A stretch of DNA of 64,000 bases from an uncultured Clostridia bacterium (lineage in GTDB: Bacteria > Bacillota > Clostridia > Christensenellales > Pumilibacteraceae), in contig CANQAE010000001.1 of assembly GCA_947589465.1 (NCBI GenBank), positions 1 through 64,000 of the forward strand. Direction: 5' to 3'. This document shows positions 26,895-31,577 of the stretch, piece after piece. Under the pieces are notes generated by a model. That model did not search any database and was not told where the DNA came from. It worked only from the letters and a program-made list of their open reading frames with translations. Within the stretch, counting starts at the first letter, position 1. Each line of letters starts with the position of its first letter. A program made the position numbers and the translations under genes.

Positions 26895-27296
26895 ATGGAG
26901 AAGATTGTGGATAATATTTGGGACGAAGAAAAATTTTTGAAAACTTATAAGGGAACGGAAACGTTCGTAAACGTCGAGAGCGGTTATTATTCCCTCTTTT
27001 TGGAGTGCCTTAAAGACGAGGAACTCTTGTCGCATATCCGCTTTGCGAACGATACTTTGAATGTGCCGCCGCTCAAAACATTTATACTCTATGAACGTGA
27101 CGTTCTTAAAAAGAATGTGTTTCGTGAAAGAATGTCGCCCACTGCAAAGCGGGGGTTGGGTGCATGTTTTGGATATCTCTACAAGTTTATCTACGGCGGA
27201 TACGAGTCGGAGCCGAGTTGGTTCAACGACGCGCAGACGGGTATCAAAACGGCAAGTTATTTTAGAAAAATATCACGGGGCAAAGAAGTCGAATGA
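26895..27296 (+). CDS. Uncharacterised protein, first gene of a two-gene module
   Basis: I do not recognise this 133-residue protein. It is soluble, mixed alpha/beta in appearance and rich in aromatic residues, with no signal peptide, no cysteine cluster and no known motif (notable segments: ETFVNVESGYYSLF, GACFGYLYKFIYGGYES). The ATG at 26895 has a poor ribosome binding site. Its last 4 bp overlap the next gene (ATGA), so the two are almost certainly expressed together and probably work together. The region looks AT-richer than neighbouring operons, consistent with transfer. Confidence 0.65.
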   Translation: MEKIVDNIWDEEKFLKTYKGTETFVNVESGYYSLFLECLKDEELLSHIRFANDTLNVPPLKTFILYERDVLKKNVFRERMSPTAKRGLGACFGYLYKFIYGGYESEPSWFNDAQTGIKTASYFRKISRGKEVE

Positions 27297-28252
27297 AAAA
27301 CAGCCGCGTTTTGAGGGGGAGCGTTCGCAAGTTCTTTGAAGCGTCCTCGCCTGTAAGAGATCATATCGTAAACTATGTGCGAGATAACCTGAAAAACGGA
27401 ACAAAGAGCGTCGCGCTGTGCTTCCGCGGAAATGCGGCAACGCTTTACTATCATTGTCATCAACTTCTGCGCATCCGTTCCTCGCGAGATGGAATTGTGG
27501 GAGAATTCGATTTTCGACACGCACGGTTTTCGGGAAATTATAAGTTGACGCTCGAATGCCTCAACAGGTTACGAGTCGATACTTCTCGATTTTGCGACGG
27601 ATCGGGGCAGACGGCGAATAACATTCTTCGATTTTCTTTGAACGAATGTAACACAACTGATATTGAGGAAATTTTGAAGATATATCGTGAACTGATTGAC
27701 GATTTTTTCAATCCCGAAAAGAAAGATTATGCCTTTGGCGCGCCTACCGACAGACACGAAAAGACTATGTATTTGGAAAAAGACCGTCAGCAACAACTGT
27801 GGGCGAACTATTTTTTGCATGACGACTTGACTTATTACGATATGGAATATTCTGAGCGTTTCGCCGCGCAAAAAGGCTTGCACGGCAGATTCGATCTCTT
27901 GGGACTACGCAGAGAAACGAGCGGTTATACATTGCTTTTGACCGAATTAAAGTCCTCACCGCAGGCAATTCAAGGGAAGTCGGGGATAGCAAGTCACGAA
28001 AAAGATTATCTCGGCTATTTGGATAGCCCGATTATCGCTACCCGAAAAACGGAAGCCTGCGAAACGATACGCCTGTTTTGCGACATCTTCGAAAAGCCGT
28101 ATCCCGAAGATCTTACACCTGAAACCATAACGGACGCAAAGGTGCAGTTTGTTTTTTCGGACAAGGTAATAGGCGCGGGCAAGGCGTATCACCCCTCGGA
28201 CAGCCGCATCGAAAAGGTTTATCTCGAAAACGGTATAGAACGAAGTTATTAA
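27293..28252 (+). CDS. Uncharacterised protein with PD-(D/E)XK nuclease-like motif
   Basis: A 319-residue protein not matched to a named family. Residues 160-240 carry a plausible PD-(D/E)XK core: a helix with E162 and Q168 (LEKDRQQQLWANYF), then D201 in GLHGRFDLLGL and E218-x-K220 in LLLTELKSSP on the next strand, followed by a lysine/histidine-rich helix (GKSGIASHEKDYLGY). Spacing D-x16-ExK fits. The N-terminal ~130 residues look like a separate, basic domain that might bind nucleic acid. No signal peptide. Translationally coupled to the preceding gene. A restriction or repair-like role is an inference only. Confidence 0.7.
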   Translation: MKNSRVLRGSVRKFFEASSPVRDHIVNYVRDNLKNGTKSVALCFRGNAATLYYHCHQLLRIRSSRDGIVGEFDFRHARFSGNYKLTLECLNRLRVDTSRFCDGSGQTANNILRFSLNECNTTDIEEILKIYRELIDDFFNPEKKDYAFGAPTDRHEKTMYLEKDRQQQLWANYFLHDDLTYYDMEYSERFAAQKGLHGRFDLLGLRRETSGYTLLLTELKSSPQAIQGKSGIASHEKDYLGYLDSPIIATRKTEACETIRLFCDIFEKPYPEDLTPETITDAKVQFVFSDKVIGAGKAYHPSDSRIEKVYLENGIERSY

Positions 28253-28354: not shown

Positions 28355-28382
28355 TTGACAAAAATATGCTTTTATATATAAT
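28355..28382 (+). promoter_or_regulatory. Promoter of the MBL hydrolase gene
   Basis: TTGACA (28355-28360) and TATAAT (28377-28382) are both consensus with a 16-bp spacer. An AAAAGGAGC ribosome binding site precedes the ATG at 28425. Confidence 0.75.
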
Positions 28383-28424: not shown

Positions 28425-29600
28425 ATGGAAAACTACAACATACTTCGCGGGAAGGATAAAATAGGGGAAAATCTCATTGAGATATTTTACGGGGAAACGA
28501 AACTTTTGGTCGAACTTGGGAAAGCGCTCGACGGCGGCGACGAACTGAGCGACGTCGAAAAAGCGGCGATAAGAGAAAAGTATGATGCGGTCGTCGTAAG
28601 CCATTATCACGCCGACCATGCGGGACTTATTGAACAAAAGAAAGACTGCCCGATCTATATCGGCGCAGGCGCACGGCGTATTCTCGAAGCGATGGACGAA
28701 TATAAGGGGAAAACTCTCCCGAAAAATATCGTCGCATACAATAACGGCAAGCCGTTCTACGTTGGTAAGATCAAGATAACGCCTCTGCTTTGCGATCATT
28801 CGGCATTTGATAGTTATATGCTTCTTTTTGAGGCGGGCGGCAAAAGCATTCTCTATACCGGCGACTTCCGCTTTCACGGCAGAAAAAACAGCGACGATCT
28901 TTTCGCGCGACTTCCGCGCCACATCGATACGCTTATTTCGGAAGGAACGAATATCGGGAGCGACAAGCCCTGTTTTTCGGAACGTGAACTTGAAGAAAGC
29001 GCGGTCGAACTGTTCAAGGCAACGGACAAACCCGTTTTTGTTTTACAGTCCGCGTCAAATATCGACAGACTCGTCAGCGTTTATCGCGCCGCCAAACGAA
29101 GCGGACGGATATTCTACGAGGACATTTATACCGCTCTGCTCGCGGGAGCCGCGGGCGGCAAAATCCCGCGCCCTGACGTCTTTAATGACGTATATGCTTT
29201 TACGCCGCGTTTCGTGCAGGATAAACGCAAGGAGATGTTCTTTGAATTTGAACATAAGCGCGGAGTCGCGAGAATCGACAAAGGCAAGCCTTTTGTTATG
29301 CTTGTCCGCCCGTCTATGCTCGGCTTTCTCAAAAAACTTGCCGCAAAGATGAACCTTGACGGTGCGCTCCTCATTTATTCCATGTGGAGCGGCTATCGTG
29401 AAAACGATGATGTAAAAAAGTTTTTGACGGTGGCGAAAGACTTGGGACTTGTCGAGCGTACTCTGCATACGAGCGGACACGCTTCAATGCAGGACGTCAA
29501 ACGCTTGATAGAAAGGGTGTCGGCAACTAAATATGAAATTGTTCATACCGCGCCAACGGACAGTTGTTATTCCCCCGACGAATTTAATATGGCTGACTAA
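28425..29600 (+). CDS. Metallo-beta-lactamase-fold hydrolase, RNase J/beta-CASP-like
   Basis: A 391-residue soluble protein. The MBL metal-binding motif HxHxDH is present as SHYHADHAGL (H60, H62, D64, H65). The further ligands are in LLCDHSAFDSY and LYTGDFRFHGRK. A helical insertion (~190-330) and the late histidine motif HTSGHASMQDVKRLIE resemble beta-CASP nucleases such as RNase J, but it is shorter and lacks the RNase J C-terminal region. A nucleic-acid substrate is an inference. The stop codon lies in a 14-bp tandem duplication. It has its own strong promoter. Confidence 0.82.
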   Translation: MENYNILRGKDKIGENLIEIFYGETKLLVELGKALDGGDELSDVEKAAIREKYDAVVVSHYHADHAGLIEQKKDCPIYIGAGARRILEAMDEYKGKTLPKNIVAYNNGKPFYVGKIKITPLLCDHSAFDSYMLLFEAGGKSILYTGDFRFHGRKNSDDLFARLPRHIDTLISEGTNIGSDKPCFSERELEESAVELFKATDKPVFVLQSASNIDRLVSVYRAAKRSGRIFYEDIYTALLAGAAGGKIPRPDVFNDVYAFTPRFVQDKRKEMFFEFEHKRGVARIDKGKPFVMLVRPSMLGFLKKLAAKMNLDGALLIYSMWSGYRENDDVKKFLTVAKDLGLVERTLHTSGHASMQDVKRLIERVSATKYEIVHTAPTDSCYSPDEFNMAD

Positions 29601-29614
29601 ATATGGCTGACTAA
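29587..29614. repeat. 14-bp tandem duplication over a stop codon
   Basis: ATATGGCTGACTAA occurs twice in direct succession (29587-29600 and 29601-29614). The first copy supplies the stop of the MBL gene, so the coding sequence is unaffected. Confidence 0.85.
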
Positions 29615-29864: not shown

Positions 29865-31577
29865 TTATTTCGAATCGTAGGTCATATTTTCGTTTGTCGA
29901 AATGCTCTCGTCGGTGGAAGCGCACTCGTCGGCAAATTCGGTCGGTTGAACGCTTGGAGCACCCCCTTCCGCCTCTTGCGCCGCTTCCGCCTCTTGCGCC
30001 ATGGCATGAATGTACAACTTGTCGGTAAGTCTGCCGTTTTTTCTTTGGATGAAGTAGGCGGTGAGGATGAGCGCGGTGAACAGCGCGATCGCAACGACCC
30101 AGCCGAGCCAAACGCCCACAAGACCCGCCATAAGGAAACTGAGGAAGGCAATGCCCGCCAGCATCAACGCATTTGGCATTTGTGCCTTAACGTAACCCAT
30201 ATGGTTGCTTTTGCAAGCGCCCGCCGAAAGGATAGTGGCGTCGGAGATGGGAGAAACTTGATCGCCGAACACCGAACCGGACAGCACGCCCGAAATCGTA
30301 AGCACCAAAATATCGTGTTCGAGCCCCATAGCCACGACGACGGGGATCATAATGCCGAACGTTCCCCAACTTGTTCCCGTCGCAAAGGCAATACCCATAG
30401 CCACAAGGAAGAAAAGCGCAGGCAAAATAGATTTGGCGTCGCCGAGTACGATCGCAAATGCCTTTACGAAAGCGTCGAGGTGGAGGCTTTCGCTAACGCC
30501 TTTGAGCGTCCAGGCAAAAATAACTATTATTACGACGTCGGCAATTGATTTGAAGCCGATGGGGAAGCATCCCGTATATTCTTTGAGCGTCATAAGTTTG
30601 CGCGGGAGATAGAGGAGGAGGCATACGATAAGCGCAATGCAACCGCCTATTGGGAGAGCCGTTTCGGTAGCGAACAGCGGATCGCCGTTCTCTCGTTTGA
30701 TGAGAAGCAGACAGCAGCACGAGATCACGAGGGCGGCTATGGGAATAACGAGGTCGAAAACTCTGCCCTTGCCGCTTGTGTTTATGGCTTCGTCGCTATG
30801 AGTGACTTCAAGCCCGCCCGTAAGGTCGCCCGTTTCGATAGCGTGCTTTTCGTGATTAAAAAGCCCGAATAGGTCAATGCCGAGTATAGAGGTTACGACG
30901 AGGAAAGCGAGCAAAAGTATGGGATAGAAATTTCGGAAGATCGTTTCCGTGTACATCGCAAATGCATTTTCGCCGCCTATGTTGCTCGCAATGGCGCTTG
31001 CCCAACTCGATATGGGAATGAGAATACATATCGAAACGGATATGCTGCCAACTATAAAAGTCGTCTTTGCGCGGGAAATACGATATTTATCGTTTATCGG
31101 CTGCATTATCGAGCCGACCGCGAGGCGGTTGAAGTAGTCGTCTATGAACAGAGCGCAACCGAGTCCCGTCGTCGCCAGCAACGCGCCTTTGCGCGATTTG
31201 ACGTGAGCGTGCACCCATTTGCCGAACGCCTGCGCGCCGCCCGCCTTGTTCATCAGGGCGACGAGAATACCGAGTTCGAGTATAAAGATGAGTATGCCCG
31301 CATTGCCCGCGCTCGAAAAGTTCCCGTTTTCGTCGTAATACGGTCCCATTTGCCTCGACATGACGTTGAATATATGGGCGAATGCCTCTATGGGATTGTA
31401 AATTCCTTGTTGAAAAACAAACGTGAGCGCGCCGACAAGTATTCCGAGGAAAAGCGAAATATAAACTTCTTTTGTAAGCAGAGCGAGAACGATAGCCACT
31501 ATCGCCGGAATGAGCGCCCAAAAATATTGTCCCATTATTTTGGCGGCGTTGTCTGCGGTCACAACAATATCTCCCAT
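29865..31577 (-). CDS. Na+/H+ antiporter, NhaC family
   Basis: A polytopic membrane protein of 570 residues with about 11-13 hydrophobic helices, probably exchanging sodium (or a carboxylate couple) for protons. Matching features of the NhaC family (COG1757) are FWALIPAIVAIVLALLTKEVYISLFLGILVGAL at the N-terminus (in part LLTKEVYISLFLGILVGA), IDDYFNRLAVGS, FATGTSWGTFGIMIPV and GSVFGDQVSPISDATI. The last ~45 residues form an acidic, low-complexity tail with the repeated AQEAEAAQEAEG, which is unusual. A GGAGGGGA site precedes the ATG. The exact substrate is not certain. Confidence 0.87.
   Translation of the reverse strand: MGDIVVTADNAAKIMGQYFWALIPAIVAIVLALLTKEVYISLFLGILVGALTFVFQQGIYNPIEAFAHIFNVMSRQMGPYYDENGNFSSAGNAGILIFILELGILVALMNKAGGAQAFGKWVHAHVKSRKGALLATTGLGCALFIDDYFNRLAVGSIMQPINDKYRISRAKTTFIVGSISVSICILIPISSWASAIASNIGGENAFAMYTETIFRNFYPILLLAFLVVTSILGIDLFGLFNHEKHAIETGDLTGGLEVTHSDEAINTSGKGRVFDLVIPIAALVISCCCLLLIKRENGDPLFATETALPIGGCIALIVCLLLYLPRKLMTLKEYTGCFPIGFKSIADVVIIVIFAWTLKGVSESLHLDAFVKAFAIVLGDAKSILPALFFLVAMGIAFATGTSWGTFGIMIPVVVAMGLEHDILVLTISGVLSGSVFGDQVSPISDATILSAGACKSNHMGYVKAQMPNALMLAGIAFLSFLMAGLVGVWLGWVVAIALFTALILTAYFIQRKNGRLTDKLYIHAMAQEAEAAQEAEGGAPSVQPTEFADECASTDESISTNENMTYDSK

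Follow-up and report, generated by a model that had tools for sequence, protein, structure and literature searches.

A mobile gene module of Clostridia links an RNase J-like beta-CASP protein with exchangeable, probable PD-(D/E)XK nucleases and may serve in defence

Three genes in a stretch of 64,000 nucleotides from an uncultured Clostridia bacterium (hereafter the window, meaning the whole stretch that was analysed) very likely constitute a mobile dual-nuclease module whose products act together. They encode a small protein (P1), a very probable PD-(D/E)XK nuclease (P2) and a beta-CASP metallo-beta-lactamase protein (MBL), and their coordinates are collected in Table 1. Our fuller reading, in which the products of the three-gene module probably form one complex that works against phages or plasmids, is one that we favour somewhat, and defence against mobile elements, as the purpose of the module taken on its own, seems an evenly balanced proposition.

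Table 1. Coordinates of the module and its local features in the window
Feature	Position	Strand	Description and basis
P1	26895-27296	+	133 aa, unknown fold, predicted helical (low-confidence model)
P2	27293-28252	+	319 aa; probable PD-(D/E)XK nuclease at residues ~154-319 and a family-conserved N-terminal domain
P2 codons D201-K220, putative active-site triad D201/E218/K220	27893-27952	+	identical in aligned relatives with a letter there
Promoter-like site TTGACA-17-TATTTT, 5' of P1	26816-26844	+	consensus scan, 10/12 matches; weak evidence
Terminator-like hairpin 3' of P2	28268-28283	+	consensus scan; weak evidence
Promoter-like site TTGACA-16-TATAAT, 5' of the MBL gene	28355-28382	+	consensus scan, 12/12 matches
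MBL	28425-29600	+	391 aa, RNase J-like beta-CASP metallo-beta-lactamase nuclease; Pfam, NCBIfam, metal-site residues
HYHADH metal-binding motif, MBL residues 60-65	28602-28619	+	invariant in alignment A7

The first-pass annotation of this DNA had described a two-gene module at 26895-28252, with P1 and P2 overlapping by 4 bp. The coordinates of the two genes and the overlap (ATGA) are right, and the boundary is too short, since the MBL gene is part of the same unit, and some relatives have it fused to P2, others to P1. The promoter assigned to the pair stands in part: a consensus match does lie 5' of P1, but such sites are just modestly enriched in the scan (9 found, 4.6 expected from shuffles), and terminator-like hairpins show no excess over shuffles (5 found, 4.1 expected). 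The gap of 172 bp between P2 and the MBL gene contains the second promoter-like site of Table 1, and judging from this arrangement P2 and MBL may be transcribed separately. A perfect tandem duplication of the 14-bp unit AATATGGCTGACTA spans the MBL stop codon (window 29586-29613). The block had also been called AT-richer than its surroundings, which is true but mild when its composition is compared with that of neighbouring genes and of the window: the GC content is 43.1% for P1 and 46.0% for P2, where nearby genes have 50-54% and the window as a whole 48.3%, and GC3 is 0.51, 0.50 and 0.55 for P1, P2 and the MBL gene, against 0.61-0.66 for the neighbouring genes.

The assignment of P2 to the PD-(D/E)XK nucleases had been proposed from the string D201-x16-E218-L-K220, which is present as described. 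Since a D-x10-20-E-x-K string occurs in 20 of the 49 long non-overlapping open reading frames of the window, the string alone is weak evidence. What raises the motif above chance is its conservation: all relatives with a letter at the position (29-31 of 32 rows) agree on E162, D183, E185, D201, E218 and K220, and in the joint alignment R45 and Y52, in the N-terminal domain, are almost as constant. The aligned relatives, about 30 in number, range from Clostridia to Rhizobium; close ones occur in gut Clostridia (54-79% identical), and profile searches add more distant members that share 17-24% identity. The 274-aa proteins of a second set, type A, match the P2 family in a profile-profile comparison at E 0.0009, with a reported probability of just 23%, and the motif residues are superposed in that alignment. 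Iterated profiles merge the P2 family with type A and recruit proteins from Rhizobium, Ochrobactrum, Cereibacter, Cupriavidus and Sphingomonas plasmids, at E-values that are not independent because the recruits entered the profile. The P2 family, as far as its alignment can tell, possesses the conserved D...(D/E)xK active site of the PD-(D/E)XK superfamily.

The predicted structure points the same way. The AlphaFold2 model of P2, computed from a three-sequence input, has a mean pLDDT of 59 (mostly 70-87 over residues 200-312), with helices and strands in the expected order. Foldseek returned no match below E 0.001 for this model, and when its candidates were re-aligned the list consisted almost wholly of PD-(D/E)XK enzymes, matched over P2 residues ~154-319, with Z scores of 7.2 for Upx (the best), 6.5 for NucS, 6.4 for XisH, 5.3 for HamA and 5.0 for SduA, none of them decisive singly. 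Taken together, the uniform list of structural matches and the invariant residues make P2 very probably a PD-(D/E)XK nuclease, so that the nuclease core proposed at first pass is borne out, and the restriction-endonuclease fold, whose absence would have counted against it, is favoured, though not decisively, by the moderate-confidence model. That neither P1 nor P2 is recognised also holds: searched alone against Pfam, NCBIfam and PADLOC, each gave nothing useful, and P2 found chance matches only among PDB sequences.

MBL, the product of the third gene, matches Pfam Lactamase_B_2 (E 2.7e-10), has a sub-threshold RMMBL-like C-terminus, and reaches E 9.5e-17 with the NCBIfam RNase J family TIGR00649, at 60.6 bits for a cut-off of 400. 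The metal-site residues H60, H62, D64, H65, H125, D147 and H352 are invariant in MBL and 11 relatives (alignment A7), and the site (HxHxDH, H, D and C-terminal H) is intact by sequence. In the MBL tree the window copy groups with L001 and L084, and next with L002, L085 and L086. Because the closest characterised relatives of this protein are RNase J enzymes and the C-terminus resembles RMMBL, the "RNA specificity" domain, albeit below the curated cut-off, one may ask whether the module acts on RNA, with MBL working in the manner of RNase J and PD-(D/E)XK as an RNA-guided or structural partner, for example in an RNA-degrading dormancy response. We regard this as improbable, since MBL falls far under the RNase J cut-off, PD-(D/E)XK enzymes are mostly DNA cutters, and the fusions to polymerase fragments described below point toward DNA.

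The grouping of the three genes rests on fusions and on a census of loci. P2 runs in frame into MBL in L001 (703 aa), P1 is fused to MBL in L092, and G691, of the same genus, has P1 within a 738-aa frame like that of L092; a P2 relative at 29% identity overlaps the MBL start in L006/L041, and L003 has decayed P2 pieces followed by MBL. The module has at least three genes. Searches at E at most 1e-30 place MBL relatives in 13 of the family's 74 genomes, and at E at most 1e-35 in 29 of the order's 347; the module occurs in several percent of the genomes of one Clostridia order. Among 46 mapped MBL loci, plasmid loci included, 36 have a PD-(D/E)XK gene adjoining or within about 2 kb, belonging either to the P2 family (AB) or to family C, a second nuclease family with an invariant D...ExK whose profile found no relative in the PDB. 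The remaining 10 include L034, which runs off the contig end, and L092 and L098, where another PD-(D/E)XK-like gene was seen by eye. Conversely, the P2-family profile matched 7 of 228 genomes, all seven of which have MBL on the same contig. The nuclease partner varies by locus (AB, C, both, or others), and MBL is the most constant part of the module.

P1 is linked to MBL as well. Relatives of P1 occur in 12 of the 347 genomes of the order, and 11 of these also carry MBL, on one contig with P1 and near it, a co-occurrence with P about 2e-12 among the genomes of the order. A separate P1 gene is always the first gene of the module. In the twelfth genome, G596, an orphan P1 (L147:4588-5022) stands without MBL or nuclease and adjoins genes resembling those 3' of the module in L001; it is probably a remnant. 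The protein itself gave little else: its structure model is too poor for use (mean pLDDT 43.5), and its profile, like those of family C and of the VGIFW domain described below, brought up no PDB relative; one ribosomal match from these searches, at E 0.017, was set aside.

P1 is missing at many MBL loci, which bears on whether P1 and P2 could be an antitoxin and a nuclease toxin with MBL as an associated gene. The small first gene with its 4-bp overlap with the nuclease gene, the mobile and patchy character of the module, and the swapping of the nuclease partner while P1 and MBL remain would all suit such a pair. Yet neither the P2-MBL fusion of L001 nor the MBL loci of type A and of Proteobacteria have P1 alongside, which shows that nucleases of the P2 family occur without it, and the partner that stays constant seems to be an active nuclease, no inhibitor; we therefore give the toxin-antitoxin interpretation little credence.

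The mobility of the module is evident from its surroundings. In the window it lies between a radical-SAM protein gene (radSAM) and a transporter gene, in the order radSAM, P1-P2-MBL, NhaC1, and NhaC2 lies on a different contig. G003 and G004 have an unbroken ABCF-radSAM-NhaC2-NhaC1-ABC order that lacks the module, NhaC2 directly follows radSAM in G001, and no P1, P2 or window-type MBL was found in the stretch read after radSAM in seven congeners; a local rearrangement may have accompanied the acquisition of the module. The NhaC-like paralogue that is next to radSAM in congeners corresponds here to G000:C12:24434-25894, and the other NhaC-like gene is at window 29865-31577. The congener G004 has just a distant type-A version, elsewhere in the genome. 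Identity to G706, a member of another family, is 90% for P1, 76% for P2 and 84% for MBL, against 51% for PurL, a protein that is 75-79% identical to those of congeners. These identities are hard to explain otherwise than by horizontal transfer, and by this sequence comparison the module is horizontally acquired; a binning error is argued against by the neighbours, which are conserved on both sides of the module.

On a wider scale the distribution is patchy, with decayed copies. MBL relatives are carried by plasmids of Proteobacteria, Bacteroidota and other Bacillota, some of them beside restriction genes, DUF262 genes or transposon genes; P2 itself has no plasmid match, its plasmid matches being diverged relatives only. 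Neither the viral contigs scanned, which yielded no relative of MBL, P2 or P1, nor the phage collection, which yielded distant MBL matches only, at the RNase J level, give any sign that the module is phage-borne. The neighbours in the window and at most Clostridia loci are core genes that form no recognisable defence island.

It is the combination of two nuclease chemistries, one-chain fusions, an exchangeable cutter, carriage on mobile DNA and restriction or DUF262 neighbours that suggests an invader-degrading complex. P1, P2 and MBL would act together, most likely as a single complex, in which P2 would cut foreign DNA internally, the beta-CASP protein would degrade or trim the ends left by P2, and P1 (and the VGIFW domain in relatives) would be an adaptor or sensor limiting activity to invaders. 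Several observations weigh against this reading: the core-gene surroundings in the window and at most Clostridia loci, the lack of a PADLOC match for the window proteins, the affinity of MBL to RNase J, which may mean an RNA substrate, the polymerase fusions, which would suit repair equally, the possibly separate transcription of P2 and MBL in the window, and the many loci that lack P1.

This VGIFW domain is N-terminal on some MBLs (A11) and a separate protein next to the plasmid MBL in L075, L076, L077 and L083, and its profile found no relative in the PDB. A small domain of the form VGIFW...PRGR...D.HY (for example L077:5546-5938) occurs in 71 plasmid records, 54 of them from Acinetobacter, and has no Pfam, PADLOC or PDB match; on one small plasmid a death-on-curing toxin and a macro-domain gene lie close to the VGIFW domain. 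Other neighbours differ from locus to locus. A metallophosphoesterase adjoins MBL in L078 and L081, and by eye, in L029:3082-6710, a Sel1-repeat-like protein separates the family-C nuclease from MBL, which is followed by an AAA+ protease-like protein. ADP-ribosylglycohydrolase-like genes were seen by eye near the module in L029, L035, L097 and L098, and were rejected as module members, their order and orientation differing among the four loci.

The polymerase-related domains are what make an accessory role in DNA repair or end processing the main rival to defence. Under this alternative a beta-CASP enzyme like the SNM1/Artemis-type DNA nucleases, helped by the PD-(D/E)XK protein and by polymerase- and exonuclease-like domains, would act on breaks or crosslinks. 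In L084:3903-6323 and L092:3592-5805, MBL is fused at its C-terminal end to a fragment of DNA polymerase III alpha (Pfam E 8.9e-34 and 2.7e-17, respectively, with PDB matches too), the fragment coming from the NTPase domain, with a finger part as well in L084, and being separated from MBL by the P1 domain in L092. A weak exonuclease-like domain (RNase_T, E 0.019) precedes MBL in L087, and by eye a dnaE gene or a gene for a UvrD-type helicase lies downstream in L031 and L030. Polymerase activity of the fragments seems unlikely, however, because the match is confined to roughly the first half of the NTPase-domain profile, and a gene set that is patchy, transferred and lost, with its PD-(D/E)XK partner exchanged, would be unusual for a repair function. 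Repair is on balance unlikely, if less so than an action on RNA. Returning to the preferred defence reading, a bolder version of it sees in complexes of beta-CASP and exchangeable PD-(D/E)XK proteins a novel form of surveillance against mobile elements, where the DnaE NTPase/finger fragment of some lineages perhaps mimics or contacts the replisome and so recognises foreign replication; we offer this as speculation and consider it improbable.

The enzyme folds are known, and the new part, within the catalogues and papers searched, is the pairing of RNase J-like beta-CASP with PD-(D/E)XK, which was found neither in Pfam, NCBIfam and PADLOC nor described as a system in the literature searched (most subscription journals and preprints lie outside it). 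The suggestion that the system is undescribed thus fits every source consulted. Should the module prove to serve in defence, it would add a modular nuclease platform whose cutters can be exchanged. Named isolates are the source of the plasmid relatives of Rhizobium, Ochrobactrum and Sphingomonas, which makes these directly testable, and the DnaE-fragment fusions pose the specific question of how the module recognises its target.

No model of PADLOC-DB 2.0.0 is matched by P1, P2 or MBL of the window. The only hit among the relatives searched is a weak local one, in the nuclease core of the diverged P2 relative of L006, to the PADLOC candidate PDC-S11 (E 2.6e-4); neither P2 itself nor type A nor the proteobacterial relatives match that candidate. 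Upx, HamA (Hachiman) and SduA (Shedu) have a nuclease fold that the model of P2 residues ~154-319 resembles, no sequence relation to P2 was found, and no partner gene or domain of theirs turned up in module loci. The RNase J/beta-CASP enzymes (TIGR00649; PDB 3zq4, 5a0t; 2az4, EF2904) are like MBL in fold, in HxHxDH and further ligands, in the beta-CASP-like insert and in the RMMBL-like C-terminus, whereas they have about 550 aa to its 391 and only the window-type MBL is linked or fused to PD-(D/E)XK proteins. Cas14 of type VII CRISPR-Cas is likewise a beta-CASP nuclease in an immune setting (PMC10910872); MBL scores 23 bits against its model, for a cut-off of 800, and no Cas5/Cas7 partners were noticed at module loci. 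In Hachiman, AVAST, Lamassu and DRT, ComEC-like MBL nucleases are activated by trypsin-like proteases (PMC12799240), and no such protease is among the neighbours of the window module or the named neighbours in plasmid loci. Those pairs and the module have in common an MBL-fold nuclease as the mobile, exchangeable partner, there of immune enzymes, and they differ in that the former join a ComEC-like MBL to a protease, whereas the module joins an RNase J-like MBL to a probable PD-(D/E)XK nuclease.
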